Assembly: GCF_009674675.1 (NCBI RefSeq)
Contig: NZ_WKJC01000001.1
Coordinates: forward strand, 372,001 to 436,000
DNA from: Kangiella sp. HZ709
GTDB lineage: Bacteria; Pseudomonadota; Gammaproteobacteria; Enterobacterales; Kangiellaceae
DNA length: 64,000 nt
Reading direction: 5' to 3'
The notes under the pieces were generated by a model, which was not told where the DNA came from, did no database searches, and was given only the letters and a program-made list of their open reading frames with translations. A program made the translations under genes and the position numbers. Shown one piece after another: positions 11,962 through 39,110 of the stretch (positions within the stretch are counted from its first letter, which is position 1; each line of letters starts with the position of its first letter).

Positions 11962-12018
11962 TGATTTTACTAAGTTACATTACCTCCTAGTTGTACGCCC
12001 AACTTATTACGACCAGAA

Positions 12019-12582: not shown

Positions 12583-12652
12583 GCTCTTTTGCAAAGATAG
12601 CCTTCAGATATGAAGGCTTCTAGTGATCCTGTGCCTAGTTCTTCAACTACAA

Positions 12653-13630
12653 CTATAACTTCCACGCAACGGTGATTGAGCCATAACGGTTGTATTGTTC
12701 GAAGTCACCATCAACTTCTTCATTAAGTATGTCCTGATCGGTAAAACTAAAGGTCAGGGAGATGTTCTGCCATGAATAGGCTATGCCACCTATAAAACCG
12801 AGGTTGAATCGCTCATAATCAACAGAGGGGCTATCATCTTCAAAAGTATTACCATCGAGGAATATTGTATTGAAAGTGTAACGACCCATTAATCCAAAAT
12901 AAAAATACCAGTCACCATTGGTGGCCGTGGGATTGCTTAGGCGAGAGCTATTAAATCCGGCAGTAGGGTAGGACGTTTGAAGGTTATGACCATATCGATA
13001 CAACAGCGATGTTTGAATACTTGACTCTAGGTTGCCTAATCCGGCTTCGTATCTAAACAAAACGTCTGAAGTTTCATCTTGATATTTCCATGCCCTGTAG
13101 GTTCTTCCATAGTTTAACTTAAAAACAGGTTCATTTTTTAACTGAAAGCTCCATCCCATGGGTTCATCGGCGCCAAATAAACTATGAACTAAGCGCTGCG
13201 TTCGTTTTGCACCTGATGCCGGTCCGACGATACCAACCGTTGTCGTAAAGTCTTCACTATAATTTTCGTACACTTTGATGTAATTATTAGCCACATACAA
13301 TAATCCGGCATAGGGAACATCGCCTTGTGGAGGAACTGGAAGAGTGATATCACCCGGCGTTTGCATGATTTGACCTACGGTATAAATATCTAAAGTAGCC
13401 AATGATGCTTTATCTGACATTATCCCAAGAAATGGAGATGTCATCCAAGAGGCTTCTAATGCTTCCTCTTCAGAAATATCGTATAGCGATATTGTTAATC
13501 CGTTGGTATATCCATTATCACTACCTGTAAACAAATCGTTGTCAAAGGTGACTGAAGTCCATTCAAAGTCCTCAGCAAGAGCCATAGATTGAAGGGCGAC
13601 TAAAAGTAATAAAGTATATATTTTTCGCAT
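12653..13630 (-). CDS. LpxR family lipid A deacylase-like outer-membrane protein
   Basis: 325 residues with a signal peptide ending at SMALA. FDNDLFTGSDNGYTNG at the mature N-terminus carries the Asn-Asp pair and TNG of LpxR/DUF2219. RLVHSLFG supplies the conserved His, and GWSFQLKNEPVFKLNYGR is the family's central motif. LpxR removes the 3'-acyloxyacyl chain of lipid A at the outer membrane. Alternating hydrophobic strands and a terminal aromatic-containing strand (ITVAWKL) fit a beta-barrel. The start has AAAGGA upstream. It sits 14 bp downstream of the TetR gene on the same strand, so it may be cotranscribed with it and share the AcrR-type operator. Confidence 0.85.
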   Translation of the reverse strand: MRKIYTLLLLVALQSMALAEDFEWTSVTFDNDLFTGSDNGYTNGLTISLYDISEEEALEASWMTSPFLGIMSDKASLATLDIYTVGQIMQTPGDITLPVPPQGDVPYAGLLYVANNYIKVYENYSEDFTTTVGIVGPASGAKRTQRLVHSLFGADEPMGWSFQLKNEPVFKLNYGRTYRAWKYQDETSDVLFRYEAGLGNLESSIQTSLLYRYGHNLQTSYPTAGFNSSRLSNPTATNGDWYFYFGLMGRYTFNTIFLDGNTFEDDSPSVDYERFNLGFIGGIAYSWQNISLTFSFTDQDILNEEVDGDFEQYNRYGSITVAWKL

Positions 13631-13644
13631 AGCGATTATCCTTT

Positions 13645-14262
13645 TTATATCTTCAAAGGGTTAAGTAATAGTTCAATTAATGATTTCGCGTAAGTAGAAA
13701 TATCTAAATTTATATCCTTGGGAGAGGCATACCATGAATCGAGAACCCCGGTAAGATAAGCATTGTATGCAAAGGCCAGCACTTTAGGATTGTTGGCTTT
13801 ACTGATGAGTTTGTCTTGCCTTGCTTGTTCAAATTGCTCTTCATAAAACTTCAGCGAGTTGTAATATACCTGTTCGCTATGAGCATGAAATATTGGCATA
13901 TTTTTCTCAGTTCCGATAGTTTGCATAAATATTGCAAATGATTTTTTTTGCTTTTCATCTTGATAAATAGTGGTGAAAAGGTTCACGGCATGCGTTTCAA
14001 GAATGTCTAACGAATTCATCTCTTTATGTATTAGTCCTTCGAAGTACTCTTGATATGTAGCTATGGTTTGATCCAACAAGGCATTCAACACTTCTTCTTT
14101 ATTCTTAAAGTGCCAATAAAAAGCGCCCCGAGTTACCCCGGCTTTTTCAACAATTTGTTTGATACTGGTATTGGCAATACCATTTTGATAAAACTCATCT
14201 TTAGCTGCCTCTAATAACGACAGACGTGTTTGCGCGGCTTCATCTTTGGTTTTCTTTGGCAT
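13645..14262 (-). CDS. TetR/AcrR family transcriptional repressor
   Basis: About 205 residues from the ATG at 14262 (MPKKTKDEAAQTR). I preferred this to the ATG at 14280, which lies inside the operator palindrome and would add six odd residues; an AAAG precedes the chosen start. The N-terminal helix-turn-helix (TSIKQIVEKAGVTRGAFYWH) is classic AcrR. The C-terminal part resembles the ligand domain of efflux-pump TetR repressors. It is divergent from the RND efflux operon, with an AcrR-type inverted repeat in the 72-bp gap, so it very likely represses both directions and is relieved by pump substrates. Confidence 0.92.
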   Translation of the reverse strand: MPKKTKDEAAQTRLSLLEAAKDEFYQNGIANTSIKQIVEKAGVTRGAFYWHFKNKEEVLNALLDQTIATYQEYFEGLIHKEMNSLDILETHAVNLFTTIYQDEKQKKSFAIFMQTIGTEKNMPIFHAHSEQVYYNSLKFYEEQFEQARQDKLISKANNPKVLAFAYNAYLTGVLDSWYASPKDINLDISTYAKSLIELLLNPLKI

Positions 14263-14270
14263 AAACAACT

Positions 14271-14299
14271 TTACATACATTCGTGTATGTATGTATACT
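14271..14299 (+). promoter_or_regulatory. Predicted promoter of the RND operon
   Basis: TTACAT at 14271-14276, a 17-bp spacer, and TATACT at 14294-14299 make a plausible sigma-70 promoter reading towards the adaptor gene. The -35 to -10 interval coincides almost exactly with the AcrR-type palindrome, so bound repressor would cover the polymerase site. The start point is not determined. Confidence 0.6.
14272..14295. promoter_or_regulatory. AcrR-type operator, 24-bp inverted repeat
   Basis: Half-sites TACATACAT (14272-14280) and ATGTATGTA (14287-14295) are perfect inverted repeats separated by TCGTGT. This is nearly the same as the E. coli acrAB/acrR operator as I remember it, which has the same half-sites and a TTTGTGA-like centre. 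It lies between the divergent TetR and RND genes. Confidence 0.85.
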
Positions 14300-14334
14300 A
14301 ATCACAACTAGCCATAATTGCAAGGTAATTGATC

Positions 14335-15402
14335 GTGAAGAAAATACTCTTACTAACTTTAGCCATCACTTCAATGATGATCACTGGATGTACAGAAGAC
14401 GGTAGTGATAATCTTCTTAATGAAGAAATGATAAGGCCAATAAAGTTTCATACCGTGGTTAAGTCAGACTCTAGTGTTGAAAGAGAGTACCCAGCGACGA
14501 TCAAAGCTGCTGAATCATCGGATCTAGCATTCGAAGTCGGAGGTAAACTCATAGCGTTAAGTGTCAAGGAATCAGAAGAAGTCAGTAAGGGAGATGTTTT
14601 AGCAAGGCTGGATACCAGAAATGCTAAAAACCAAATGAATGCTCTAAAGTCACAATACAACAATGCCCAGACAGAATACGAAAGAGCACTTAAGTTATTA
14701 AAAGAAGATGCCATTGCCAAGACCGTTGTTGACCAAAGAAAAACACAATTGGATGTACTGAAGAATCAACTGGATACTGCGAATAAATCCTTGAGCGACT
14801 CTGTGTTGAAAGCACCTTTTGATGGCGTGATCGCCACCACGTTTGTTGAAAATTTAGAAAACATCCAACCTCAGCAAAAAATATTAACGCTTATTGGCAA
14901 AAATAGGCTTGAGGCAGAGATCAATGTCCCAGCCAGTGTGGTCACCCAAATACCAAAAAGAGAGGCCGAAAGTAGCTATATAATATTTGATAGCGAGCCA
15001 AATCGCAGGATTGATACTGAATTTGTAAAAGCGAATTTAGTGGCAGATAGTGCTACTCAGACTTATCAAGTAACGTTCGGATTTAAAAACCCAACTGATA
15101 TTTTAATCTTACCGGGTATGAACGCGACCTTAGTTATTGATACCACCCTGAAAAGTCAGGTTACGAGCGGTAGTTTTGTTTCAGTGCCATTAACCGCTAT
15201 ACAATCTATCGAAGGGATAAATTATGTATGGGTAATAGATCCACTTCAACTGACCGTTGAGAAGAAAGAGGTCACCGTTGAGCAAAGTGTTGGCAGCTCA
15301 GTAAAAGTTTCTAAAGGGCTGCAAGAAGGACAGATCATTGCCGCGACGGGACTCTCGCATTTAAGTAAAGGTATGAAAGTGAAAGAATGGAAAAGCAATT
15401 AA
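14335..15402 (+). CDS. RND efflux periplasmic adaptor (membrane fusion protein), lipoprotein
   Basis: About 355 residues from the GTG at 14335, which has AAGG 9 bases upstream; the in-frame TTG at 14329 is too close to it. The lipobox ITGC gives an inner-membrane-anchored lipoprotein. A lipoyl/barrel-sandwich half (LAFEVGGKLIAL, KGDVLARLD), a coiled-coil hairpin of about 80 residues, the return lipoyl half (LKAPFDGVIATTF), then beta-barrel and membrane-proximal domains follow in the HlyD/AcrA order. It links the pump encoded next to the outer-membrane factor. First gene of a three-gene operon under the AcrR-type operator. Confidence 0.93.
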   Translation: MKKILLLTLAITSMMITGCTEDGSDNLLNEEMIRPIKFHTVVKSDSSVEREYPATIKAAESSDLAFEVGGKLIALSVKESEEVSKGDVLARLDTRNAKNQMNALKSQYNNAQTEYERALKLLKEDAIAKTVVDQRKTQLDVLKNQLDTANKSLSDSVLKAPFDGVIATTFVENLENIQPQQKILTLIGKNRLEAEINVPASVVTQIPKREAESSYIIFDSEPNRRIDTEFVKANLVADSATQTYQVTFGFKNPTDILILPGMNATLVIDTTLKSQVTSGSFVSVPLTAIQSIEGINYVWVIDPLQLTVEKKEVTVEQSVGSSVKVSKGLQEGQIIAATGLSHLSKGMKVKEWKSN

Positions 15403-15427
15403 CAAATAAGAACAAGAGGAACTACTA

Positions 15428-18400
15428 ATGAATATTGCAGAGTTTTCTATCAGGAATAAAATCCTAAGCACTCTTGTCATTGTTTTTGCTTTAACCGCAG
15501 GGTGGGGTGCCTACAAAGATATGCCCCGTTACGAAGATCCTGAATTTGTGATTCGAATCGCTCAAATCATTACTCAATATCCAGGAGCAAGTCCTGAAGA
15601 AGTTGCAAATGAGATCACCGATCCTTTAGAAAAATCCATTCAACAATTACAAGAAGTGAAACTCATTAATTCGACGTCTTCTGCGGGATTATCTGAAATA
15701 CAAGTAGAAATAAAATATGAATTTTCTAAGAGTAAATCAGACTTACAGCTGATCTGGTCGAAACTGAGAAATAAAGTTAGAGATGCAGAGCGTTACTTGC
15801 CAAGTGAAGCTACATCCCCAGCGGTTTATGACGATTTCGGCGATGTCTTTGGAATGTACTACTTCATCACAGGCGAAGGCTATTCAATGAGTGAGCTTAG
15901 AGATTTCGCAAAGACATTTCAAAGTGAAATTTTACAAGTAAAGGGAGTAGCTAAAGTAAGCTTTGCTGGAGAACAGCAAGAAGCCATTTATGTTGAAATT
16001 TCTAGACAAAATGCATTATCTGTAGGGGCAGATATTTCCAACATATATAACATTTTATCGCAGCAAAACTCCATCGTCTCAGCAGGAAACCTTGCTATCG
16101 AAGATCAACGCTTGGTGATAGATCCATCAGGAGCCATAGATTCAGTCGATTCAATTAAAAATCTGCTGATTTCTTCAAACGAAGGGAAAGTGACTTACCT
16201 CAAAGACATTGCGCATGTGTGGAGAGGTTATCAAACACCCTCATCGAAAATAATCCGATATAACGGAAAGCCCGCAATTGCCATTGGTGTGTCAAACGTC
16301 AGCGGTGAAAACGTAGTTAAGCTCGGACAGCGAGTGGATACAAAAATAAAAACATTGAAAGAGCTTCAACCACTAGGAATGGAAATCCATGAGTATTACC
16401 ATCAAGGAAAAGTGGTCGATACATCAGTTCAGAACTTTGTAACAAACGTAATTGCAGCATTAGCCATTGTGATTATTACGTTACTTATCTTTATGGGCTT
16501 AAAGTCTGCATTGGTAATAGGGGCAATCTTACTGCTAACTATCGCCGCAACTTTAGCCACTATGAATTTAGTTTCAATTCCAATGCATCGAATATCACTT
16601 GGGGCACTTATTATTGCCTTGGGAATGATGGTTGATAATGCCATCGTGGTGACAGAAGGGATTTTAGTTGGCGTAAAAAATGGACAGAAAAGAATGGCGA
16701 TCGCTAAATCCATTGTCAGTCAAACTAAGTGGCCATTATTGGGCGGAACTCTTGTAGGGATAGTTGCTTTTGCCCCCATTGGGTTTGCCCCTGGTAGTAC
16801 CGCAGAATACACCCAACATCTTTTTTGGGTGATTCTAATTTCTTTGATGTTTAGCTGGCTATTTGCGATCACTTTAACCCCTTTATTTTGTTATCACTTA
16901 TTTAAAGGTGAAGCTTCAAATAGTAAAACTTCAGAGGGTAGGTTTCTTCTAGGTTACAAAAAGTTTTTATCGCATCTCATCGATAAACGAATCTTTGTAG
17001 TTGCTACCGTTTTAGTTATTTTTGCAGTATCAGCATGGGGCTTTAAATTCGTTAAATCGGGTTTTTTCCCTGCCTCAACAACACCGCAACTGGTTGTTGA
17101 TTATTGGCTACCTGAAGGAACTGATATCACTCAAGCAGAAAAAGATGCAATTGCGATAGAAACTTACATCCGTGGACTCGACAGTGTTAACTCCGTTCAA
17201 ACTTTAATAGGTGCCGGTGGCTTAAGGTATATGCTCATCTACTCACCAGAGTCCCCAAACTCTTCCTATGCTCAGTTATTAGTTAAAGTTGATGACTATA
17301 AGAAATTGGATAATTTACTCATTGAAGTTCAGCAGTATATCGATAATAACTATAATAATGCCCAAGCCAAAGTCTGGCGTTTTGTACTTGGACCAGGAGG
17401 AGGCTCAAAGATTGAAGCGACATTCAAAGGGCCTGATCCCAAGATATTGAGAAATTTAGCAAACCAAGCTAAAGCCATAATGATTAAAGATGGACAAGCC
17501 TTATCCATAAAAGATAATTGGCGAGAACCTGTGCCCTTTATCGAGCCAATATATTCAGAGAGATTAGGAAGAGCATCAGGTATCTCACGAGAAGATTTAG
17601 CCAATGCCTTAGCTCTAAATTTCTCAGGTAGAACGGTTGGGGCATATCGCGAAGGCAATGATATTTTACCCATTATTTCTCGGGCGCCAAGTAATGAAAG
17701 GGCGGACGTCAATAGCATTAATGACATTTTAGTGCAAAGCTCTACAACTGGTAATTTGATACCTATAGCTCAAGTAGTCGAAGGCTTTAATACACAGTGG
17801 CGCGATAGTAGGTTACGTCGTGAAGACCGTGTTTGGACTATTAAAGCTCAGTCCGATCCATTACCTGGCAATTTATCATCAGAGTTGTTTGAAAGGATCA
17901 GGCCTCAAATTGAATCGATTGCATTACCACCCGGTTATCAACTCGAATGGGATGGAGAGTACGGAGACTCCAAAGAATCAAATGAAAATTTGGCCTCTAC
18001 TATTCCATTAGGCTTCTTGACTATGGTTATCATTGTGCTTCTTTTGTTCAATGCCATTAAGCAAACCGTGGTTATTTGGTTGGTCGTGCCGCTGGCTATC
18101 ATTGGAGTCGTTTGGGGTTTGGTTGTTACACAAATACCTATGGAATTCATGGGTATATTAGGGGTCTTATCCTTATCAGGATTATTGATCAAGAATGCCA
18201 TTGTATTAGTCGATCAAATGGACTTCGAAATTGAAGAAGGGAAGCCTAGGTTTAATGCTGTCTTAGACTCAGCTGCTAGCCGACTAAGACCTGTTATGAT
18301 GGGAACCTTAACCACAGTCTTGGGCGTAATTCCGTTATTTTTTGATGCCTTTTTCCAATCTATGGCTGTCGTTTTAGTTTTTGGACTATCCTTTGCAACA

Positions 18401-18478
18401 ATATTAACTTTAGTAATAGTCCCAGTTTTATACTCTATGTTTTTTAAAATTACTTCCCAGGAGTCGCATAATGCTTAA
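15428..18478 (+). CDS. RND efflux transporter permease
   Basis: 1,016 residues, the usual AcrB-family length. One N-terminal helix (TLVIVFALTAGWGAY), a large periplasmic porter domain, helices 2-6, a second porter domain and helices 8-12 can be followed. In TM4 the proton-relay signature reads ALGMMVDNAIVV, so the second Asp of the usual VDD is Asn while the first is kept. GAGG precedes the ATG. It overlaps the next gene by 8 bp. It probably exports drugs or other hydrophobic compounds from the periplasm or inner membrane; the substrate is unknown. Confidence 0.95.
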   Translation: MNIAEFSIRNKILSTLVIVFALTAGWGAYKDMPRYEDPEFVIRIAQIITQYPGASPEEVANEITDPLEKSIQQLQEVKLINSTSSAGLSEIQVEIKYEFSKSKSDLQLIWSKLRNKVRDAERYLPSEATSPAVYDDFGDVFGMYYFITGEGYSMSELRDFAKTFQSEILQVKGVAKVSFAGEQQEAIYVEISRQNALSVGADISNIYNILSQQNSIVSAGNLAIEDQRLVIDPSGAIDSVDSIKNLLISSNEGKVTYLKDIAHVWRGYQTPSSKIIRYNGKPAIAIGVSNVSGENVVKLGQRVDTKIKTLKELQPLGMEIHEYYHQGKVVDTSVQNFVTNVIAALAIVIITLLIFMGLKSALVIGAILLLTIAATLATMNLVSIPMHRISLGALIIALGMMVDNAIVVTEGILVGVKNGQKRMAIAKSIVSQTKWPLLGGTLVGIVAFAPIGFAPGSTAEYTQHLFWVILISLMFSWLFAITLTPLFCYHLFKGEASNSKTSEGRFLLGYKKFLSHLIDKRIFVVATVLVIFAVSAWGFKFVKSGFFPASTTPQLVVDYWLPEGTDITQAEKDAIAIETYIRGLDSVNSVQTLIGAGGLRYMLIYSPESPNSSYAQLLVKVDDYKKLDNLLIEVQQYIDNNYNNAQAKVWRFVLGPGGGSKIEATFKGPDPKILRNLANQAKAIMIKDGQALSIKDNWREPVPFIEPIYSERLGRASGISREDLANALALNFSGRTVGAYREGNDILPIISRAPSNERADVNSINDILVQSSTTGNLIPIAQVVEGFNTQWRDSRLRREDRVWTIKAQSDPLPGNLSSELFERIRPQIESIALPPGYQLEWDGEYGDSKESNENLASTIPLGFLTMVIIVLLLFNAIKQTVVIWLVVPLAIIGVVWGLVVTQIPMEFMGILGVLSLSGLLIKNAIVLVDQMDFEIEEGKPRFNAVLDSAASRLRPVMMGTLTTVLGVIPLFFDAFFQSMAVVLVFGLSFATILTLVIVPVLYSMFFKITSQESHNA

Positions 18479-19853
18479 GAACTCTAAAACGGGTTTGGTA
18501 TTGTTAATCAGCTTTTCAATCTTAAGCTGCGCAAATTTATCAACCAAAGATGATGTTAAGTCGACCATTAATTCGAGCTTGCCTGACATCCCTGACAATT
18601 GGCACTCTTTGAAAATTGATGGTGAGTTTGAAAATGATTTTATTGATCAATTTAACGATCCAATTTTAGAAAATTTAGTTAATGAAGCATTAAGCAGTAA
18701 CAACGATTTATTATCTGCTGCTGCCAATGTCGAACGCTCAAAAGCACTAGCTGAACAAGCGGGCGCATCGCTGAAGCCAATGGTTAATTTAGCTTTTGGC
18801 GGAACTCGCTCAGGAGGTGTTGAATCAAACACCCCTAAGCAAACCTCCTTAAATGCTAATCTACAAGTTCAATGGGAATTAGATTTATGGGGCAGAGTAC
18901 GCTCAGGAGCGAAAACAGCCTATGCCAGTTATCAAGCAGTAGAAGCCGATTATCAATATGCTAAGCACTCCATTGCAGCGAACGTTGCAAAAGCCTACTT
19001 TTCGACTTTAGAAGCTGCTAAGCAAGAAACTTTGCTACTCAGTACATTAGCAAACCTGAATAAAACCTCTCAGATTGTTAACCTTCAATATAAAAATGGC
19101 TTAGCGTCTTCACAAGATGTATCTTTAGTAAAGACAGACTTAGCGAATATTCAAGAGCAATTAGAAACTCTAAAAGCTTCAAAAAGACAAGGCCTAAGAG
19201 CTTTGGAAATTTTAGTGGGCCGGTATCCATCAGCAGAAATCGATATCGCCAATAAGTTGCCGGTTATTCCACCTTTTCCAAACTCAGGAATACCTTCCGA
19301 ACTCTTAGAAAGGCGCCCTGATATTGTTGCTGTTGAGCGAAGAGTGGCTGCAGCTTTTTACGCACTTGATCAAGCAAAGGCAGCTCAATTGCCGACGATA
19401 TCCCTAACAAGCGGAGTAGGGGGAACTTCCAGTGAGTTATCCAATGTTTTAAAGCCGGAAAATTTGGCTTGGCAGTTAGCCAGTAATCTATTAGCTCCCT
19501 TGTTTGATGGTGGATTACGTGAATCACAAGTCAATGCTGCAAATGCTGATCAAAAAGCTGCGATAGCGGCTTATACACAAACAGTACTGACAGCATTTTC
19601 AGAAGTAGAAAACAGCTTAGATTCAGGAATCAGTTTACAAAATCGTTTAATGCTATTGGAAGAAGCAAAAAAAGAATCTAACAACGCCTTGAGAGTTGCT
19701 GAATTAAATTATAATGAAGGTGAAATTGCACTATTAGATGTTCTTACAATACAGCAAAGAGTCACTGCCGCTGAAAGTTCTTTGGTTTCTGTTTACCGCA
19801 GCCTACTTGAACAAAGAATTAATATCTTTCTTGCTTTGGGAGGCGAGTGGTAA
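18471..19853 (+). CDS. RND outer-membrane factor, NodT/OprM-type lipoprotein
   Basis: 460 residues with a lipobox ending in ILSC. Two repeated outer-membrane efflux protein domains follow: NEALSSNNDLLSAAANVERS, WELDLWGRVRSG, then LERRPDIVAVERRVAAA and LLAPLFDGG in the second half. These motifs are standard for the NodT/OprM subgroup of TolC-like channels. The start codon overlaps the end of the pump gene (8 bp), implying translational coupling. It completes the tripartite pump. Confidence 0.95.
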   Translation: MLKNSKTGLVLLISFSILSCANLSTKDDVKSTINSSLPDIPDNWHSLKIDGEFENDFIDQFNDPILENLVNEALSSNNDLLSAAANVERSKALAEQAGASLKPMVNLAFGGTRSGGVESNTPKQTSLNANLQVQWELDLWGRVRSGAKTAYASYQAVEADYQYAKHSIAANVAKAYFSTLEAAKQETLLLSTLANLNKTSQIVNLQYKNGLASSQDVSLVKTDLANIQEQLETLKASKRQGLRALEILVGRYPSAEIDIANKLPVIPPFPNSGIPSELLERRPDIVAVERRVAAAFYALDQAKAAQLPTISLTSGVGGTSSELSNVLKPENLAWQLASNLLAPLFDGGLRESQVNAANADQKAAIAAYTQTVLTAFSEVENSLDSGISLQNRLMLLEEAKKESNNALRVAELNYNEGEIALLDVLTIQQRVTAAESSLVSVYRSLLEQRINIFLALGGEW

Positions 19854-19868
19854 AAAAGTGAGAATTAA

Positions 19869-20312
19869 ATGTTTACACAAATAATGCTAGGGACCACTGT
19901 TATCCTAGTAACTCTTATTATACAAGTCGTATTTATTGCAATTGCAATCGAGTTACTAACTAAAAAGGGTGCTTGGTTTGTAAAACCACCCTTGTTCACA
20001 AAGAACATTATTGGGTTAGTTATTGTGGTGCTTTGGCTGATTGTTGGGATCAGCTTAAGTGCTTGGTCATGGGCTGGCATCTTTCTTTATACAGAAGCTT
20101 TTGATTCGCTTGAGCTAGCACTATATTTTTCAGTAGTGACATTCACGACACTCGGTTATGGCGAAATAACTCTTGGTCCTGAGTTTCGACTATTAGGTAG
20201 TTTCTCCGCTGTGAATGGCTTAATTATTTTCGGATTGAATACTGCGTTTTTGGTTGAGTTTTCAAGTCGGCTTCGTATAAGCCAAGAAAAAGCATCAAGC
20301 AGAACTGGTTAA
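19869..20312 (+). CDS. Two-TM potassium-channel-like protein
   Basis: 147 residues. Hydrophobic segments at about 5-25 and 40-65, a pore helix with the selectivity signature TFTTLGYGE (about residues 93-101), and a final helix through FGLNTAFLVEF fit a small ion channel (Ion_trans_2). TLGYGE matches the K+ filter T-x-GYG. No cytoplasmic RCK or cyclic-nucleotide domain is attached. It lies only 15 bp after the efflux operon and 14 bp before gltS, so it may be cotranscribed with them. Confidence 0.85.
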   Translation: MFTQIMLGTTVILVTLIIQVVFIAIAIELLTKKGAWFVKPPLFTKNIIGLVIVVLWLIVGISLSAWSWAGIFLYTEAFDSLELALYFSVVTFTTLGYGEITLGPEFRLLGSFSAVNGLIIFGLNTAFLVEFSSRLRISQEKASSRTG

Positions 20313-20326
20313 TGAGGACCTGATAA

Positions 20327-21526
20327 GTGACTACTTTTTTAGCAGATAACTTCATAACTTTCACTCTAAGTATAATAGTGTTTTTCATTGGGTTATACAT
20401 CAATAAAAAAATACCTTTATTACGAAAATTTAATATTCCCGAACCTGTAACTGGCGGTTTGATTGCATCATTAATTTCACTTTTTTTGTATCTATCAATA
20501 GATTTTGAAATCAGCTTTCAATTAGGTGTACGCGATATCTTGTTGGTGTATTTTTTTACTGGGATCGGTCTTAACGCAAAACTGTCGGATTTAATAAAAG
20601 GTGGCAAACCATTATTGATAATGCTGGGCTTAACTATTTCGTATATTATTATCCAAAACGTTGTAGGTATTAGTGGTGCTATGATTAGCGGGGTACCTTC
20701 GCAAGTCGGCGTACTCGCTGGCTCTGCTTCGTTAATTGGCGGCCATGGCACTACAATCGCTTGGGCTCCTGAGGTTGCCTCTATGGGCGTAGATAATGCT
20801 CTTGAAATAGGAGTGGCTAGTGCAACACTTGGTTTGATACTTGCCAGCCTTATAGGCGGACCTGTAGCTCATATTCTGATTAAGCGATATAGGCTTTCTG
20901 GCACTAGTGGAGATTCTTTAATCATCGGAATTTCTTTTAAAGAAGAAAAAACAGAAACTATTGACCACGTAAATTTAATGTCCGTTTTCTTAGCTCTGCA
21001 CATAACTATAATAATAGGCTGGTTTGGAAATCTTATTGCTACAGAGTTAGGACTAAAATTACCTTTATTTGTTACCTGCTTACTCACGGGCATTATACTG
21101 TCAAATTTAATTCCATCCGTGCTACCTAAGTTAAAGTGGCCAGCAAGAACAAAAGGACTTGCTATCATCTCTGACTTTTCATTGAATCTATTTTTAACCA
21201 TGTCACTGATGAGCATGCAGCTGTGGACAATCACTAATTTAGCAGGATCATTATTGTTAATTCTGCTAATGCAAACACTAGCTGCCATACTTTTCATACT
21301 ATTTATTTTGTTTCCATTGATGGGGCGTAACTATCAAGCAGCCGTTCTTAGTGCTGGCTTTGGAGGTTTTGCCCTAGGCGCAACACCAACTGCTATTGCT
21401 AATATGACGGCTGTAACCAAATCTTATGGGGCTGCTCCTTTAGCTTTTATAATTCTACCTCTAGTAGCGGCTTTTTTTGTTGATATTATTAACTCGTTTG
21501 TAATCGGCTATGCGCTCACTTTTTAA
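20327..21526 (+). CDS. gltS: Sodium/glutamate symporter
   Basis: 399 residues from a GTG start. About ten hydrophobic helices with GltS features are visible: NIPEPVTGGLIASL near residue 36, GLNAKLSDLIKGGKP near 80, GHGTTIAWAP near 140, and the second inverted half with AGFGGFALGATPTAIANM near 345. GltS imports glutamate with Na+ across the inner membrane. The 3' end overlaps the next reading frame by 17 bp, so the downstream lipoprotein genes probably belong to the same transcript. Confidence 0.92.
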   Translation: MTTFLADNFITFTLSIIVFFIGLYINKKIPLLRKFNIPEPVTGGLIASLISLFLYLSIDFEISFQLGVRDILLVYFFTGIGLNAKLSDLIKGGKPLLIMLGLTISYIIIQNVVGISGAMISGVPSQVGVLAGSASLIGGHGTTIAWAPEVASMGVDNALEIGVASATLGLILASLIGGPVAHILIKRYRLSGTSGDSLIIGISFKEEKTETIDHVNLMSVFLALHITIIIGWFGNLIATELGLKLPLFVTCLLTGIILSNLIPSVLPKLKWPARTKGLAIISDFSLNLFLTMSLMSMQLWTITNLAGSLLLILLMQTLAAILFILFILFPLMGRNYQAAVLSAGFGGFALGATPTAIANMTAVTKSYGAAPLAFIILPLVAAFFVDIINSFVIGYALTF

Positions 21527-21917
21527 AACGAAGACTATGCTAATGATGACTACTCTTATAGTCATTATTGGATGTCAAAATGCAACTTTAACTCACAAAC
21601 ACAATGACAGATTTATAAATGAATTAGTGATTTTTAATAACACAAATTACTATCTAGAAAATATTGTTCTCATAAATATAGATACAGGCACGAATGTTTC
21701 TTGTAGTTCAATTCTTCCACGTTCTCAATGTTCAGTCGGATTCTCTAAATTACCCATAACCACTCACAGAGCGGTAATACAATGGCTCGACCCTACTGGA
21801 ACCTACCAAAAGGATGTAATAGCAAGTAATTTAGACTCTATACCAAATATGACTGTGTCTAAAATAGTGATTGAAATTGAAGATTTGGGAATCATAAAGG
21901 CCTATTACGAACAATGA
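21510..21917 (+). CDS. Small lipoprotein of unknown function
   Basis: 135 residues. The N-terminus MRSLFKTKTMLMMTTLIV leads to a lipobox ending IIGC. The mature part has no motif I recognise; a Cys pair (VSCSSILPRSQCSVG) and beta-rich text suggest a small extracytoplasmic domain. It starts inside the last codons of gltS (17-bp overlap) and overlaps the following PLD gene by 4 bp (ATGA). It therefore looks like part of a tight lipoprotein-PLD-patatin unit and may be an accessory of those enzymes; that is inference. Confidence 0.65.
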   Translation: MRSLFKTKTMLMMTTLIVIIGCQNATLTHKHNDRFINELVIFNNTNYYLENIVLINIDTGTNVSCSSILPRSQCSVGFSKLPITTHRAVIQWLDPTGTYQKDVIASNLDSIPNMTVSKIVIEIEDLGIIKAYYEQ

Positions 21918-23443
21918 GGAGCCAAAAGCTTTTCCTTTTAGCTTTTCTGTTAATTAGCGGATGCGTTGCATTGCCGCCGCATACTAACGAGCTTGTATTG
22001 TATGCCTACCCAGAGACCTCTACTACATTACTTGGAAGATCTGCTAGTGATTTCTATAGTAGAAATAAGATCGATCGTTCTCAAAGCGGATTATCCTTAA
22101 TACAAAATGCTGCAGACGCCTATATTGCAAGAATCACCTTAGTCCGACTCGCTGAGAAATCACTTGATCTCCAATATTACTTATATCATGACGATCAAAC
22201 CGGTAGTTTTTTATTTAATGAATTATGGAAAGCTGCAGAAAGAGGAGTCAGAATTAGATTGCTGCTTGATGATATGGATGTACATAGAAATGATTCAAAC
22301 TTAGCCTTATTAGCGCAACATCCCAATATTAACATCAAAACCTTCAATCCCTTTGACCGCAAATACTTTAAGGGGATTCAATATGTGACCAAGTTCGGCA
22401 AAGTAACTCGCAGGATGCATAATAAATTATTTATCGCTGATAACCAGTTTGCCATACTAGGTGGAAGAAATATTGGGGATGAATATTTTGGTGCTGACAG
22501 TGATAAGGCCTTCGTAGATTTAGATGTAGCCATAATTGGTAATAAAGTAAAAGAGGCCTCTTATGCTTATGATTTATATTGGAATCATCAGCTTTCATAC
22601 ACTCCAGAAGAATTAAATATTCGGACTCCCCAGTTAAATATCATTGAAACCGGCGAACAATTAAATTCATATGCAAAAAGCATTAAATCAAGTAACTTTG
22701 AAGAAGCCTTAAGCAAAAGCACACTTCCAATTAAAATCGCCTCCAACAATATTTCTTTTGTCATAGCTGAAACTGAAGTTCTTTATGATCATCCAGATAA
22801 AATTATAAAAGAAAATAGTCAAAATAAGCTTCTAACAAAACTAATTCCTTACCTCAGTAATATACAAAAAGAACTGATTTTGATAACCCCATACTTTATA
22901 CCAGGCGAAGAGGGCGTTGATTTTTTAAAAACTTTAGCTTTAAGAGGGATAACGGTCAAAATACTAACCAATTCTTATGCTTCAACTGATGTTCCGCTAG
23001 TTCACGCGGCCTATACTAATTACAGGAAAACTCTTGTTGAATCTGGAGTTGAAATTTATGAGCTGGCTATTGCTAATGACATTAGCAAAAAACAACATTT
23101 AAAATCAGGCCGCTCTAATAGCAGCTTACATGCGAAGTACTTTTCGGTTGATGAAAAAAATATCTTCATTGGCTCATTTAACTTCGATCCTCGTTCGGCA
23201 AATCAAAACACCGAGATAGGCATTATGATCAAATCTGAAGTAGTCACGAAAAAAATGCTAAGAAGTTTTAATCAACTAATAGAAAAAAATTCATTCAAAC
23301 TTAAAATTATTAATGGTGATTTGAATTGGTCTAAGCTTATAAAAGGTAAGGAAGTTTTATTTGATACAGAACCAAACACCACAGTAATTGATAGACTCTA
23401 TATAAAGCTCATGTCCAAACTACCTATTGAATCTCAACTATAG
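21914..23443 (+). CDS. Phospholipase D family lipoprotein (cardiolipin synthase-like)
   Basis: 509 residues with signal and lipobox (LLISGC). Two HKD motifs are present: MHNKLFIADNQFAILGGRN near residue 170 and LHAKYFSVDEKNIFIGSFN near residue 400. LDLQYYLYHDDQTG and LLLDDMD in the first half are typical of cardiolipin synthase-like PLDs. The enzyme would act on phospholipids by transphosphatidylation or hydrolysis. As a lipoprotein it should work in the periplasm or at the outer membrane rather than in the inner membrane like ClsA. Start overlaps the previous gene by 4 bp; 12 bp separate it from the patatin gene. Confidence 0.88.
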   Translation: MRSQKLFLLAFLLISGCVALPPHTNELVLYAYPETSTTLLGRSASDFYSRNKIDRSQSGLSLIQNAADAYIARITLVRLAEKSLDLQYYLYHDDQTGSFLFNELWKAAERGVRIRLLLDDMDVHRNDSNLALLAQHPNINIKTFNPFDRKYFKGIQYVTKFGKVTRRMHNKLFIADNQFAILGGRNIGDEYFGADSDKAFVDLDVAIIGNKVKEASYAYDLYWNHQLSYTPEELNIRTPQLNIIETGEQLNSYAKSIKSSNFEEALSKSTLPIKIASNNISFVIAETEVLYDHPDKIIKENSQNKLLTKLIPYLSNIQKELILITPYFIPGEEGVDFLKTLALRGITVKILTNSYASTDVPLVHAAYTNYRKTLVESGVEIYELAIANDISKKQHLKSGRSNSSLHAKYFSVDEKNIFIGSFNFDPRSANQNTEIGIMIKSEVVTKKMLRSFNQLIEKNSFKLKIINGDLNWSKLIKGKEVLFDTEPNTTVIDRLYIKLMSKLPIESQL

Positions 23444-23455
23444 CGCAAGGAAACT

Positions 23456-24793
23456 TTGATGAAGAAGAAAGCTATAAGCCTTATGTTTCTCTATTGTATT
23501 TTTTATTTACTGCAGAGTTGTGCTTCTTATGGGGTTATTAGCAATAAGCCCATAACTGTAGAACCCAAGAAAAGTTATTCTATGCACAAAAATATTAACC
23601 TCCAAAAAGACAGAGATTTAGGTGTTTTTTTAGCATTCTCAGGCGGGGGTTCAAGAGCATCAGCATTGGCTTATGGTGTTCTTAAAGCCTTGAAAGATAC
23701 AGAAATAGGTGGGAACAACCTTTTGGAGCAGGTTGATAGCATTAGTAGCGTTTCTGGAGGGAGCTTTACAGCAGCTTATTACGGATTATATGGAGATAAA
23801 ATATTTTCAGATTACAAAGATCAATTTTTGAGTAGGGATATAGCAGGGGAGCTATTTACAGGTTTATTTAATCCGCTTTTATGGTTTTCGTCACAGGGAA
23901 GAACTGAAATGGCAGTAAGGCACTATGAGAAAGATATATTTAGAGGAGCTACTTTTAACGACTTGCACAATAATAAAAATCGACCAATGATTTTTATTAA
24001 CGCCACTGATTTGGTTTCAGGCTCAAGATTTACGTTTACTCAAGAATACTTTGATCTTTTATGCTCCGATTTAAATAGCTTCCCGATAGCAAAAGCAGTG
24101 ACTGCTTCATCAGCAGTCCCAGTAGTATTCAATCCGGTTGTATTAAAAAACTATGATGGCTGTGAAAATAGTACTTCAGACTGGCTGCAATCAAGAGTTA
24201 TTAATGAGTCTGACGATCTTCTCATAAAGCGAAGTATAAAAGGGCTTAAGTCGTACAGTAATAAAAAAGAGAAACCGTATGTTCATCTTGTTGATGGTGG
24301 CATTACCGATAATTTAGGATTACAAATAATTTACGAATCAATCGGAATTGTTGGCGGCATCAGCAACTATTACAAATACTATCAAACTAAGCCACTGGAT
24401 CGCTTCCTTATCATTTCGGTAAATGCTTCTGCAGAAAGTAATAGTGATATCAGTAAATCAAATAAGATTCCATCACTAAACTCTACTGTCAACGCTGTCA
24501 CAGACACTCAAATTCACCGTACAAACGAGTACACTTTAGAATTATTGAAAAACAGTTTTAGAAAGTGGGGAGGGGAATTATCACCAAATAAGGATACTCA
24601 ACCTCAAGTTTTCTTCGTGGAAATCAGCTTTGAATCTATCAAAGAAAATAAACTTAGACTTTTCTTTAATGAAATACCCACAACATTTTATCTTAGTGAT
24701 GAGCAGATCGAGCTATTAACGAATGCGGGTTACGATTTGTTAATAAATAACCCAGTCTTTCAAAGTTTTTTAGCTTCTTATCTAGATCAGTAA
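23456..24793 (+). CDS. Patatin-like phospholipase, lipoprotein
   Basis: 445 residues with a lipobox (LLQSC). Features of the patatin fold are in order: oxyanion Gly-rich loop SGGGSRASALAYG (about 60-72), nucleophile elbow SVSGGS (about 101-106, G-x-S-x-G), and catalytic Asp in VDGGITDNLGLQ (about 280-291). It should be a serine lipase or phospholipase of periplasmic or outer-membrane location. An AAGG ribosome site lies just before the ATG. It is the last gene of a chain beginning at the K+ channel or RND operon and is followed by a 402-bp non-coding gap. Confidence 0.9.
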   Translation: MMKKKAISLMFLYCIFYLLQSCASYGVISNKPITVEPKKSYSMHKNINLQKDRDLGVFLAFSGGGSRASALAYGVLKALKDTEIGGNNLLEQVDSISSVSGGSFTAAYYGLYGDKIFSDYKDQFLSRDIAGELFTGLFNPLLWFSSQGRTEMAVRHYEKDIFRGATFNDLHNNKNRPMIFINATDLVSGSRFTFTQEYFDLLCSDLNSFPIAKAVTASSAVPVVFNPVVLKNYDGCENSTSDWLQSRVINESDDLLIKRSIKGLKSYSNKKEKPYVHLVDGGITDNLGLQIIYESIGIVGGISNYYKYYQTKPLDRFLIISVNASAESNSDISKSNKIPSLNSTVNAVTDTQIHRTNEYTLELLKNSFRKWGGELSPNKDTQPQVFFVEISFESIKENKLRLFFNEIPTTFYLSDEQIELLTNAGYDLLINNPVFQSFLASYLDQ

Positions 24794-25195
24794 ATAAATC
24801 ACTTAGAACTCTACTAGGCCATAGCTGGTCATGAGACTCCCTTTATTTCTATAGAAACTTCAGCATGACTAACTTTCGGTTGCCGACTTTAATACTTTAG
24901 TTGGAGTTTTAATACTTTAGTTGTGAGAATTACAATACTTAGGTTGTACATCCAAGTTGGACGCCAAACTTAAGGTTAATGGACTTGTATGAGCTAAGCC
25001 ATTGACTCTATGATTTTTTATAGATAAAAACCAAGTAATAAATTAAAATTTTACGTAAAACTCGTATTTCAAGTAACTCTTTAAATTTTGTGTCCGAATT
25101 TGGTAAATACTGATTAAACTTCTATTAAATTGAGGCTTCCTTGCTTGAAAACACTAAATAGCACTAACCATCCGATTATTTATTTCTAAAATATA
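24794..25195. other. 402-bp gap with short direct repeats
   Basis: No gene is visible. The stretch separates the patatin gene from the convergent LysR gene. TTTAATACTTTAGTTG occurs at 24888-24903 and 24908-24923, and a degenerate third copy (ACAATACTTAGGTTG) lies at 24932-24946. A TTGGACGCCAAACTT motif at about 24957-24971 resembles sequences beside the two recombinase loci. No obvious terminator hairpin was found. Confidence 0.5.
24888..24946 (+). repeat. Tandem short direct repeats (16 nt, about 20-23 nt spacing)
   Basis: Two exact copies of TTTAATACTTTAGTTG start 20 nt apart, and an imperfect third copy starts about 23 nt further on. The near two-turn phasing could suit a DNA-binding protein on one face of the helix. 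There are too few units and no palindromy, so it is not a CRISPR. Confidence 0.6.
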
Positions 25196-31849: not shown

Positions 31850-31862
31850 ATGGAGGAGTAAA

Positions 31863-35612: not shown

Positions 35613-35934
35613 TTATTAACAGCAAATTTATTCAAAGTCACAAAAAAATAACCGCGGGTTACTTTTTGGTTATATTTTTTCTAGAAAACTTTTTTATAAA
35701 TTTATCTGATTTTGAGAACTGGATTACAACAATGGAGCTTGATAGTCGCTCGGCTTTGCTGGGGATCCCTTACAGTTAAAAAATCTGTACTGTTTATAAT
35801 TATTATAATTTTTTACCATTTACTTATATTTTGGTGCATTTTATAACCTACTGATTTATTAGCTTATATATTGCTATTCTATTGATATAGGAGTATTTTA
35901 TTAGTTCAGAAATGCTACATTTACTAGGAGGGTA
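35613..35934. other. 322-bp AT-rich gap at left edge of the recombinase cassette
   Basis: No gene is seen. A weak hairpin (TAACC-GCG-GGTTA, about 35650-35662) followed by CTTTTTGG could terminate the antiporter transcript. ACTGATTTATTA at 35850-35861 is repeated exactly at 39081-39092, beyond the HNH gene, on the other side of the cassette. The last 40 bases hold an AGGAGGG ribosome site for the recombinase. Confidence 0.4.
35850..35861 (+). repeat. 12-bp direct repeat flanking the cassette, left copy
   Basis: ACTGATTTATTA, identical to 39081-39092. The two copies bracket recombinase, FRG and HNH genes (3.2 kb). In sequence this AT-rich a 12-bp match between two short gaps may still be chance. 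Confidence 0.4.
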
Positions 35935-36672
35935 ATGGTGCATTCTTCTCAGATCGACAGTGGTTTTTACCCTGCAAATCAAAAAAGTAGCTCGCTCTTA
36001 AAGTCACAACAAAGAGTGCCAGATAGCTTCCCTATACAAAACGTGCAAATAGACTGGGAATGGTTAATGTCAAAAAGACACGCCGTCTTAGTCTTGAATG
36101 AAGACATGCCAGAATACCTTCTAAAACCTGAAGTGAATTCAATTCTAGACTGTGAGCCTAACCCAGCTTATAGGCTGATCATTGATTTGATTTGGTCAAC
36201 TGGTGGGAGGGTATCGGAAATATTAGCGCTAACTCCTGAGCGTTTCCTTTTCGATGGGCACGATTTTATTATTAAGTTAGATACACTAAAGAGTAGAGGG
36301 CGCCCTAAAAAAAAATCTGTGGAAAGATCACCTAAACGGCTTATCCCATTATTTGATGAAAAACTTAAAAGCGCTATTCAAACTTTTCTTTATGTAAATA
36401 AATTCCGTAAAGGAGAGAAAATTTTTAAGGTTTGTAGGCAAACAGTTAATCGAAGAATTAAGAGGGCAGCTATAAAAGCTGATGACTTTCCATTTGCTAT
36501 TAGTAGCCATACGTTTAGGCATAGCTTTGCAATTCATTTAGTTCTGCATGGCAGACCGTTAAAGTATATTAGCCAATTACTAGGGCATAGCTCAATTAAA
36601 AGCACCGAAATTTACACCAATGTTTTAACTGTGGATGGAAGTCATTTCATGAAGGGAATTGACTTCCATTAA
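35935..36672 (+). CDS. ResD/D-protein-like tyrosine recombinase
   Basis: 245 residues from a GTG or ATG just after AGGAGGG. It is full length compared with the F-plasmid D protein (about 268 residues), with the segment MPEYLLKPEVNSIL corresponding to the plasmid family's TPAYLLAPEV. Catalytic residues are present: Arg in GGRVSEILALTPE, His-x-x-Arg in HTFRHSFAIH, His in LLGHSSIKS and Tyr in EIYTNV. Plasmid relatives resolve multimers at a specific site. Here it is chromosomal and followed 28 bp later by two cargo-like genes, so it probably mobilises or once mobilised this cassette. A shorter, more G+C-rich relative lies at 12019. Confidence 0.88.
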   Translation: MVHSSQIDSGFYPANQKSSSLLKSQQRVPDSFPIQNVQIDWEWLMSKRHAVLVLNEDMPEYLLKPEVNSILDCEPNPAYRLIIDLIWSTGGRVSEILALTPERFLFDGHDFIIKLDTLKSRGRPKKKSVERSPKRLIPLFDEKLKSAIQTFLYVNKFRKGEKIFKVCRQTVNRRIKRAAIKADDFPFAISSHTFRHSFAIHLVLHGRPLKYISQLLGHSSIKSTEIYTNVLTVDGSHFMKGIDFH

Positions 36673-36700
36673 ACAATAATTCAATTAAACAGGATAGATT

Positions 36701-37831
36701 ATGAGTTTAACCGGTCAATGGAGTGGCACAAAAAGTGACGGCTCTTATATAAAAGTAAATTTGATTGAATCGCAAGGAGAAATCGAAGGAACAATTTCAG
36801 AATTAACAGCACTGATAAGCCAAGATAAAAAGATTTCAATTTGGGGGTATTCAACTTTCATTGGCACAATAAATGAAACCTCATTATCTGGTGTTACACA
36901 TATTATTGGAGTTTATACTATAGACGGAAGATTATTATCAAAAAATCAAATTGTTGAGTTAGAGGAATCCTATGAAATAAAGTTTAATAAACAAATTAAT
37001 TTTAGTGGAGAGCTCTTTTCAGGAAGAACAGCTATTAACGTCAAGACTTATAGGTGGAATAACAACTCAAAAGAAATACTTGACTCATTTGCCATTAATA
37101 AAAGTATTGTTGATAAGAGCATTATTGAAAGTGAAGTAACTACTTGGAATGAATTCAAATCATTTATTCTTACTGAAAGCTCTGGAAAACTTTTTAGAGG
37201 ACAAGAGCAAGATTGGGCTTTACAGACTTCATTTCATAGGTTTAGCCACAGCGACATCCCAAGCTATTTAGATAACGAATTTAAAGAAGTAGAGCATCAT
37301 ATTAATTCATCTACTAACAATATGTACGATACTAATACTAATGCCTCATTAGCTAAGCTACTACATTTAGCACAACATCACGGCTATCCTACACCTCTTC
37401 TAGACTGGACTAAAAGTCCTTACATTGCAGCTTTTTTCGCTTTTCATAACGCTAAAGAAAATAATGATGGAAACGTGTCAATATTTATTTTCGACGATGA
37501 ATACTTTAAAAGAAATCATCAAAATAAATTATTTGAAGACATTTATTTGTATACGCCAATAAACTTAGTTCTATCGTTAGAATTGAGCAGTTTTAACAAT
37601 CCGAGAACTTTACCACAGCAATCTGTAACAATGTTTAGCAATATCAATAATATCGAGCTGTATTTACAAGGTTTCAATCGGCCTAAAATTTTAAGAAGAG
37701 TATGCATTCCTATTTTTGAACGAAAAATGGTGCTCAAAGAATTACAACTAATGGGAATAAGCTGGAACACTATGTTTCCTGGATTAGATGGTGTTTGTAA
37801 AAACTTAAAGTGGCAGCACTTTGAAGCATAG
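36701..37831 (+). CDS. FRG-domain protein of unknown function
   Basis: 376 residues. The central part holds the FRG signature: KLFRGQEQDWALQTSFHR (about residues 165-182) and LLHLAQHHGYPTPLLDWTKS (about 228-247), followed by PYIAAFFAF. The first 130 residues are beta-rich (SLTGQWSGTKSDGSYIKVNL) and look like a separate domain; the last 60 are helical with a few Cys. FRG domains are widespread in bacteria and phage-related loci, but their biochemical role is not established to my knowledge. AGGA precedes the ATG. The next gene starts within 10 bp, so the two are almost certainly cotranscribed. Confidence 0.85.
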   Translation: MSLTGQWSGTKSDGSYIKVNLIESQGEIEGTISELTALISQDKKISIWGYSTFIGTINETSLSGVTHIIGVYTIDGRLLSKNQIVELEESYEIKFNKQINFSGELFSGRTAINVKTYRWNNNSKEILDSFAINKSIVDKSIIESEVTTWNEFKSFILTESSGKLFRGQEQDWALQTSFHRFSHSDIPSYLDNEFKEVEHHINSSTNNMYDTNTNASLAKLLHLAQHHGYPTPLLDWTKSPYIAAFFAFHNAKENNDGNVSIFIFDDEYFKRNHQNKLFEDIYLYTPINLVLSLELSSFNNPRTLPQQSVTMFSNINNIELYLQGFNRPKILRRVCIPIFERKMVLKELQLMGISWNTMFPGLDGVCKNLKWQHFEA

Positions 37832-37840
37832 GTATTGCAA

Positions 37841-38935
37841 ATGGGACCTGATTTCAGTAAAAACACAAAGGAATTATTGGCAAAGAGGGCAGCCTACACT
37901 TGTTCTAATCCTGACTGCAGAAAATTAACTGTCGGCGCTAATACAGATCAACATAAAAGCACTTTAATAGGCGAAGCCGCACACATTTACGGAGCTAGAA
38001 AGGGTTCTAAAAGATATTTTGAGAAGATGAGTGATAAAGCACGCTCTGAAATCACTAATGCCATTTGGCTATGTCGAAATTGCCACAAACTAATAGATTC
38101 AGATGAAAACCAGTATTCAAGCGAAGTTTTATTTGTATGGAGAGAAGTTCATGATGAATACACATTAAATAATATTGGTAATACTACTGACAAAATTCTT
38201 CATCAGAAGAATATGAATTTAACAGAAGAGTTTTCAGACTATCCAGCAATAATTAAAAGAATCGTTATTGATAAGCCACCAGTTTGGGAATATAGGTTAA
38301 CAGCAGAGTTACTCAAATATTTTAACACCCCAATCTTCCAGCGTTTAAATGATCTACGCGATGGCTTATACATTAAGGACCAAACTCATATAAAAGATCA
38401 TGAGGTTTATGATTGGGTTCAACAGCAACTCGCTGAGAAAAAAAAGTTAGTGAGCCCTTTAATTCCATTGATAAACAAACTAAATAGTAGTTGGGGTGAG
38501 CCTGGTGTAGAAGGTGATGTTACTGAAATACATCATATAAGCAAATTAATAAGGGACTATTTAAAGTCTATAGTAGAATTTGAAGAAAAACTTTTTTTTA
38601 CACATGTTAGTAAGCGATATTCAAAAATACTTAATCTGCTCAGCAATAACTTTGGTAATCAAATATTAAAATTTAAAAGAATCCCATTAGTATTAGACGA
38701 CATTTCTGCTCAAATTGAAGATGAACTTAATAGCGGAATTACAAACCCAAATTCAGAAACTCGTGTAGTAGAAGAGGTTATATCATTTGAATTACCCAAA
38801 GGTTGGGAGAAACAAATGAATAAAGAATTAAATCGCTTACATAGTTCTAAACTATTAGATGATGATGAAGTTGAGGGTTATGGTTGTGGCACTATTTTAA
38901 TAATACTCATATTTCTTTGGATACTTTTCGCATAA
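37841..38935 (+). CDS. HNH endonuclease-like protein with C-terminal membrane helix
   Basis: About 364 residues from the ATG at 37841 (a TTG at 37835 is an alternative). Residues 15-90 form a zinc-bound HNH module: CSNPDCRKLT, GEAAHIYGARKGSKRY, and NAIWLCRNCHKLIDSDE, which provide the Cys pairs and the His-Asn-His arrangement. A middle region of about 200 residues is helical with no motif I know. The protein ends in CGTILIILIFLWILFA, a single hydrophobic helix that would anchor it to a membrane with the HNH domain on the N-terminal side. That combination is unusual for a nuclease and suggests membrane-associated DNA cutting or sensing. Confidence 0.82.
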   Translation: MGPDFSKNTKELLAKRAAYTCSNPDCRKLTVGANTDQHKSTLIGEAAHIYGARKGSKRYFEKMSDKARSEITNAIWLCRNCHKLIDSDENQYSSEVLFVWREVHDEYTLNNIGNTTDKILHQKNMNLTEEFSDYPAIIKRIVIDKPPVWEYRLTAELLKYFNTPIFQRLNDLRDGLYIKDQTHIKDHEVYDWVQQQLAEKKKLVSPLIPLINKLNSSWGEPGVEGDVTEIHHISKLIRDYLKSIVEFEEKLFFTHVSKRYSKILNLLSNNFGNQILKFKRIPLVLDDISAQIEDELNSGITNPNSETRVVEEVISFELPKGWEKQMNKELNRLHSSKLLDDDEVEGYGCGTILIILIFLWILFA

Positions 38936-38960
38936 ATTTTAACTCAATTCTTGATGGTTA

Positions 38961-38981
38961 TTAAAGTTAATAGGTTACTTG
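38961..38981 (+). repeat. 21-nt sequence shared with 11941-11961
   Basis: It shares the exact 12-mer ATAGGTTACTTG and 18/21 positions overall with the copy beside the truncated recombinase at 12019. Immediately upstream, TTCTTGATG here resembles TTCTAGATG there. It may mark a recombinase target or the scar of a related element. Confidence 0.5.
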
Positions 38982-39080
38982 GAGAATTGTTAAAGAGTTT
39001 CTTGGACGTCCAAAGTCCATTTAAATAATAATTGCTTATAATTCATTATTTAACATAATATAAATTATGCGCAAAAAGGA

Positions 39081-39092
39081 ACTGATTTATTA
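39081..39092 (+). repeat. 12-bp direct repeat flanking the cassette, right copy
   Basis: ACTGATTTATTA, identical to 35850-35861. A perfect palindrome TTGGACGTCCAA lies at about 39003-39014 in the same gap, 70 bp to the left. Confidence 0.4.
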
Positions 39093-39110
39093 TATAAACA
39101 GGATAGTATG

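Follow-up and report, generated by a model that had tools for sequence, protein, structure and literature searches.

Recombinase, FRG and HNH genes of Kangiella sp. HZ709 probably belong to a Tn7-like element without transposition genes

The consulted sections of Benler 2021 (PMC8649781) describe tyrosine resolvases (tnsR) as prevalent in clades 2 and 3 of the Tn7-like transposons, with tnsA-less branches, and report a broad defence cargo. An inactive protein, TnsF, and the Tsy element are described in the part of Faure 2023 (PMC10293859) used here. We analysed a 64,000-nucleotide stretch of the marine bacterium Kangiella sp. HZ709 (contig NZ_WKJC01000001.1, positions 372,001 to 436,000; hereafter the window), in which a cassette at 35613-39110 encodes a tyrosine recombinase, an FRG-domain protein and an HNH protein. 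We propose, with a rough probability of 0.58, that this cassette forms the right-hand portion of a Tn7-like element of 14.1 kb whose transposition genes have been lost, while the recombinase and a cargo operon of FRG and HNH were retained. The element is best read as Tn7-like but without a transposase, either a relic or dependent on others, and as carrying one FRG gene that is a candidate for defence and, distinct from it, an HNH gene.

As far as the cited sections describe them, the elements of Benler 2021 (PMC8649781) have in common with the present family a TnsABC-type machinery (here in the relatives), a tyrosine recombinase and anti-phage cargo. Unlike the tnsA-less branches of clades 2 and 3, however, the relatives found here have retained a TnsA-like gene, which faces the recombinase head-to-head; their Tns proteins do not reach the curated transposase cut-offs, and the window copy is without Tns proteins. 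TnsF and Tsy, in the part of PMC10293859 used here, likewise have a tyrosine-recombinase fold within a Tn7-like element or next to one. TnsF is described there as lacking a catalytic chamber, carrying zinc fingers and targeting comM, whereas the window recombinase keeps R-H-R-H-Y and, at 245 aa, leaves no room for a zinc-finger N-terminal part. The present family shares parts with both sets of systems, so far as these sources describe them, and is an exact fit to neither.

The three cassette genes are real (Table 1); they encode a tyrosine recombinase that appears to be active, an FRG protein and an HNH protein with a tail anchor. A preliminary description of this DNA had listed three plus-strand genes separated by 28 and 9 bp, and the open reading frames and their Pfam families bear this out: the recombinase-FRG gap is 28 bp, and the FRG-HNH gap is 9 bp with the ATG start at 37841 or 3 bp with the TTG start. 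It had also called the cassette AT-rich. This holds relative to the window (32.7% against 38.1% G+C, with 15% in the lowest 60-nt stretch), while the contrast with the left (36.8%) and right (34.7%) neighbours is mild.

The window recombinase carries the R..H-x-x-R..H..Y signature of a catalytic tyrosine recombinase; R92, H192, R195, H218 and the likely nucleophile Y227 are invariant in both 7-row alignments of its subfamily. Relatives were sought in 198 relatives, 369 genomes of the class and the GTDB species contigs (in the last set the best 80 of at least 563 recombinase relatives, 8 of the 80 at ≥40% identity over a long match). Among the matches listed, ten other loci hold close relatives, which align over most of the protein at 44-61% identity: K. 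aquimarina (G006 = L120), G023 (L036), G076 (L121), G017 (L038), G687 (L200), G552 (L201), L122, L123, L124 and L125. Left out of the ten were the window's second, truncated copy (48%) and its G011 fragment, L126 (40%), G624 (half the protein, although TnsA adjoins), L127 (broken across two frames), L147 (a piece of 38 aa at a contig edge), G399 and G529 (36%), and loci at ≤37% such as L010-L012. In L127 (1031-1824), Gabija lies directly behind the broken recombinase, and the L127 DNA searched gave no Tns match.

The assignment of the recombinase to the F-plasmid D/ResD type, made in the preliminary description, was not confirmed. Among at least 5000 plasmid records, the 40 rows listed, which look ResD-like by eye, are 31-39% identical to the window recombinase, and relatives at other loci reach 61%. 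The plasmid-like L040 recombinase is 34% identical, against 44-61% for the transposon-linked relatives (the F D protein itself lying outside this comparison). Resolvases of the D/ResD type, a name taken over from that description, are like the window recombinase in the Phage_integrase catalytic domain and in size, but differ in gene context.

Six of the ten loci (L120, L121, L122, L124, L201 and G017) have, head-to-head with the recombinase, Tns-like genes that appear to form the TnsA-TnsB-TnsC module of a Tn7-like transposon. TnsA and TnsB are present in all six, TnsC in five and a TniQ-like gene in four, with contig ends in L121 and L122. The Tns arm of intact relatives reads TnsA-TnsB-TnsC plus the TniQ-like gene, and in some a small helix-turn-helix (HTH)-like gene precedes the recombinase. 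These genes are called Tns because their profile matches, although weak, are concordant: TnsA-like NCBIfam models at 5e-4 and 3e-5 in two of three proteins, below cut-offs; PF08722 at 0.001-0.012 in three of four TnsA-like proteins, below its cut-off; PDB matches of the TnsB profile to Tn6677 TnsB (E 0.012, the best) and PseTnsAB (E 0.031); Mu-transpos_C at 0.011 and 0.21 in two of four proteins; and AAA_22 (AAA ATPase) in both TnsC proteins. As every TnsA and TnsB of these relatives stays below the transposase cut-offs of Pfam and NCBIfam, the Tns-like family is a strongly diverged branch. The names MerR-/HTH-like, TniQ-like, iscR, hisD and P2-like portal/terminase were given by eye or from general background, not by profile match; TnsR, the layout of Tn7 ends and the CBASS (cyclic oligonucleotide-based anti-phage signalling system) terms follow general background or the papers named.

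Comparison with the genus genome G011 delimits the segment. The two sequences agree at 97% over 12329-19467 and 19967-24954 (the comparison left out the intervening 500 bp, 19468-19966), and the match resumes at 39047-39071 (25 bp, exact) and continues over 39275-41024 at 77%. Since it stops at 24954 and resumes at 39047, G011 is without 24955-39046 at this place. The neighbouring 97% block, lying beside 77% DNA and ending at a repeat array, behaves as a moved unit would; it looks recently moved between the two genomes, which are less alike in the rest of this region, and we regard it as an older element of this type. The 10.4 kb to the left of the cassette (25196-35612) had any DNA match in 9 of 20 genus genomes, the own genome included, and a long one (2966 bp, 91%) only in G017, with none in G011. 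The cassette had been thought to lie between core genes. This does not agree with a left neighbour, the KefC-type gene, that belongs to the segment missing in G011, nor with the finding that 25196-35612 has a long DNA match in just one genome among the 19 others of the genus that were searched.

No open reading frame recognisable as a tns gene was seen in 24955-39046. The TnsB profile had no match in the whole genome of the window and was found in 4 of 20 genus genomes. PF08722 was absent from the own genome as well, which is a weak test, as the relatives score below its cut-off and control genomes are also without a match.

End-like sequence is present at and beside the segment. Direct repeats of the form TTTAATAxTTTAGTTG, resembling TnsB sites, occur in the array at 24888..24946, at 38966 and at 11946, the last being one strong repeat just upstream of the second recombinase copy. 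The array is common to G011, which has three repeats. The surroundings of the repeats at 38966 and 11946 align better than all of 500 shuffles, and a 21-base pattern built from 11941 (11941-11961) and 38961 has one further match in the 2.41-Mb genome, at three mismatches. A matrix made from the window and G011 sites alone gave 40.2 for three spaced sites at the cargo (iscR-gajB) end of an intact element in G017, compared with 14.0 in the best of 88 G017 bins outside that end. Together, the 97% block, the repeat arrays and the end sites suggest that the 14.1 kb form a unit flanked by Tn7-like ends, beside an older unit of the same kind.

Several observations weigh against this reading. The left-end sites at 25032 and 25070 are weak (matrix scores of 9.4 and 8.4), the end-to-end inverted match of the segment was reached by 28 of 500 shuffles, and by eye no target-site duplication (5-bp) was recognised at 24955/39046, where the terminal bases are uncertain. 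A three-site cluster test in the window picked out the 24888 array but neither 38966 nor 11946, and one cluster also appeared in 2 of 10 shuffles; with the same matrix in 406-bp bins, bin 51563, away from any element, scores 14.6. The identity of G011 to the right of the border is only 77%, so that the segment may have been lost from G011, or G011 may never have had this place in common with the window. G013 has a TnsB of the same family (G013:C1:1352880-1354712) with no close relative of the recombinase, and the DNA searched in L036, L123, L125 and L200 (four of the ten loci) held no Tns gene. TniQ models matched neither of the two candidate proteins, the TniQ-like genes having been named by eye from their place in four of the six loci. 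The defence association of the recombinase comes from ten loci without a control set, and PADLOC had no match in the scanned proteins behind the L121 and L201 recombinases (L123 and L200 being outside the scan). The weak left end and the lack of a recognised target duplication, together with distant recombinase relatives on plasmid-like DNA, would suit an ordinary genomic island of mixed origin, with repeats that arose by chance or are local regulatory sequences and a recombinase left over from a plasmid-type resolvase. We find this quite unlikely, because the window/G011 matrix blindly picked out the matching repeats in G017, the repeats beside both recombinase copies are alike, and the 97% block ends at the repeat array.

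A further point against the 14.1-kb unit is a 12-bp direct repeat, TAAACAGGATAG, of which the 2.41-Mb genome has two copies, bracketing FRG-HNH and nothing else; this suggests a unit other than the 14.1 kb. When the two gaps that hold it were shuffled 20000 times, a shared 12-mer arose in 26 cases. The recombinase could accordingly capture or swap defence cassettes behind itself by crossing over at TAAACAGGATAG, and FRG-HNH (~36698-39106) would be the mobile unit; the repeat's position behind the recombinase and again behind the cargo, as well as the different cargo behind the recombinase in different hosts, would fit such an exchange. The second TAAACAGGATAG, however, is found beyond both the 39046 border and the end repeats, and no similar repeat stood out in L035, L036 or L038, which leaves this explanation improbable. 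Palindromic sequences of the GTCCGCTT..AAGCGGAC type were seen near both ends of the G017 element (L081 6260-6295 and L082 17255-17280), in direct orientation, and are a possible recombinase site.

The preliminary description had inferred defence cargo next to the recombinase, and the context supports this: the FRG protein matches PDC-S15 (3e-43), the HNH domain matches PDC-M68A (4.7e-25), and named defence systems stand behind relatives of the recombinase. In four of the ten loci the first same-strand gene behind the recombinase has a PADLOC match (a type I methyltransferase in L122, a CBASS cyclase in L124, Dsr1 in L036 and PDC-S37 in L125); Gabija in G017 and an E1/JAB protein in G006 lie deeper in the cargo. 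Any PADLOC defence match in the cargo was thus seen at six of ten loci (type I restriction-modification, CBASS, Gabija, Dsr1, PDC-S37, E1/JAB), with no control set. It is conceivable, though we hold it as doubtful, that in this diverged Tn7-like family an active tyrosine recombinase at the junction of Tns arm and cargo is a gateway for loading and swapping anti-phage systems, and that transposase-less derivatives such as the present one, consisting only of recombinase, cargo and ends, stack side by side at one site and are mobilised in trans. The Dsr1-like protein in L036 (4642-8395) is split across two overlapping frames, and the 2052-aa protein behind the L201 recombinase (9165-15323) has one small Pfam HTH match and none in PADLOC. 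Two related small membrane-like proteins flank cargo genes in K. aquimarina (L035 647-1210 and 6853-7383).

The FRG protein matches PF08867 with 76.8 bits (gathering cut-off 25), the FRG domain spanning residues 164-255 in Pfam. Across 22 FRG sequences R166, G167, R180, H226, G228, D235, S239, R302 and Q306, among others, are invariant. A full-length model (predicted local distance difference test, pLDDT, 78; predicted template modelling score, pTM, 0.81) has an N-terminal beta-barrel (~1-135). This predicted barrel resembles GID4 and avidin-type barrels, the listed matches covering almost only this part. The FRG domain had been said to have no established biochemical role, which does not hold wholly: the part of PMC9503650 used here places Frg in the ADP-ribosyltransferase (ART) superfamily and proposes a possible NADase. 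With PDC-S15 and with the Frg ART clade as that source describes it, the window protein has the FRG domain in common; near relatives share its N-terminal region and have no constant partner. That region is common to L092-L094, and L095 and L096 are without it. The window protein is unlike both in that an HNH gene follows. FRG homologues were also found in 24 viral contigs, in L211, L212 and L221 beside P2-type portal and terminase genes (by eye).

In the HNH protein, the Pfam HNH_2 match (PF13391; 2.5e-4, 21.3 bits) is barely over the 21-bit cut-off; an HNH motif can be read from the sequence at H50, N75 and H84, with Cys 23/28/80/83 as zinc ligands, and the homologue L055 is without the last His. 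The PDC-M68A match covers residues 3-120, and the domain also resembles CBASS HNH effectors (Effector 6e-18, SAVED_HNH 5e-17; PDB 9om4 9e-11), which makes a nucleotide-type trigger thinkable. The N-terminal HNH domain is common to these effectors and PDC-M68A, whereas the likeness ends there: the C-terminal half is a module that stands alone, with a hydrophobic C-terminus, in two genomes (G110 and G180; L060 and L061). A membrane helix had been predicted at the end of the HNH protein, and a C-terminal hydrophobic stretch of ~15 residues is consistent with it.

The preliminary description had joined the two proteins into a two-gene system, in which the FRG protein would sense or signal and the membrane-anchored HNH protein cut nucleic acid. 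Such a system would account for the tight operon, the PADLOC matches of both proteins and the likeness of the HNH domain to CBASS effectors. The adjacency check proposed there went the other way. Across 394 genomes of the order (1e-6), an FRG homologue was found in 34 and an HNH homologue in 20, the own genome included; both were present only in G000 and G040, ~3.4 Mb apart in the latter, so that adjacency occurs in one of 394 genomes, the window's own. None of 53 other FRG loci has an HNH homologue in its flanks (~1.5 kb or up to 4 kb), the only one being L054, the window's own, and the neighbours of 17 FRG loci read held no constant FRG partner, nor do relatives sharing the N-terminal region have one. 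We therefore consider a two-gene system unlikely; FRG and HNH are probably separate passengers, not one matched system. A recombinase-like match lies near FRG in L114.

For the preferred reading, a Tn7-like element stripped of its transposition genes, we suggest the following course of events. A TnsB-type transposase would once have put the element beside the older one (12329-24954), next to the DUF6702 gene, the difference from G011 then reflecting insertion here and not loss there. Intact relatives combine a Tns arm, head-to-head with the recombinase, with cargo that is often anti-phage; in the window element the Tns arm would be gone, and recombinase, cargo operon and end-like repeats remain. 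The recombinase may be a resolvase or a cargo-exchange enzyme of the element. FRG is probably a self-contained (stand-alone, abortive) defence protein, whose beta-barrel may sense something and whose FRG domain, putatively of the ART superfamily, may consume NAD+ or make an ADP-ribose signal, while the HNH protein would probably be a second, membrane-tethered nuclease in the same operon, separate from FRG. If this is true, the recombinase subfamily becomes a marker for anti-phage systems even where no transposase is left, surveys relying on curated TnsA/TnsB cut-offs could miss a Tn7-like family, and the attractive but probably false FRG-HNH "system" is split into two separately testable parts.

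Table 1. Coordinates of the features in the window.
Feature	Position	Strand	Remarks
Tyrosine recombinase	35935..36672	+	245 aa; Pfam Phage_integrase 8.5e-22
FRG protein	36701..37831	+	376 aa; Pfam FRG 2.5e-21; PADLOC PDC-S15
HNH protein	37835..38935	+	366 aa from TTG; alternative start ATG 37841; HNH domain ~1-115, module ~142-332, C-terminal hydrophobic stretch 351-365
14.1-kb segment	24955..39046	.	missing at this place in G011; taken as whole transposase-less element; genes LysR, GST, MBL, pirin, CDGSH, porin, glutamate-synthase-like, KefC type, then cassette
Neighbour block, 12.6 kb	12329..24954	.	97% to G011; from second recombinase copy (inside) to repeat array
Repeat array	24888..24946	+	strong repeats 24888, 24908, weaker 24931; end of block 12329-24954
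Putative left end of 14.1-kb segment	24955..25085	-	weak inverted sites 25032, 25070
Putative right end	38966..39005	+	strong repeat 38966-38981, weak one 38990
12-bp direct repeat, copy 1	36686..36697	+	TAAACAGGATAG; gap behind recombinase
12-bp direct repeat, copy 2	39095..39106	+	TAAACAGGATAG; beyond 39046 border
Second recombinase copy	12004..12582	+	N-terminally truncated; same subfamily, 48% identity

The gene names of 24955-33395 were given by eye, that of the KefC type also by Pfam. The block 12329-24954 carries efflux-pump, phospholipase-like and patatin-like genes (by eye), and the second recombinase copy is still shorter in G011 (L039 6886-7194). Further to the left, the window encodes a 3051-aa YD/Rhs-repeat-like protein (163-9318), followed on the other strand by a nucleotidyltransferase-like gene (9953-10444), both named by eye.

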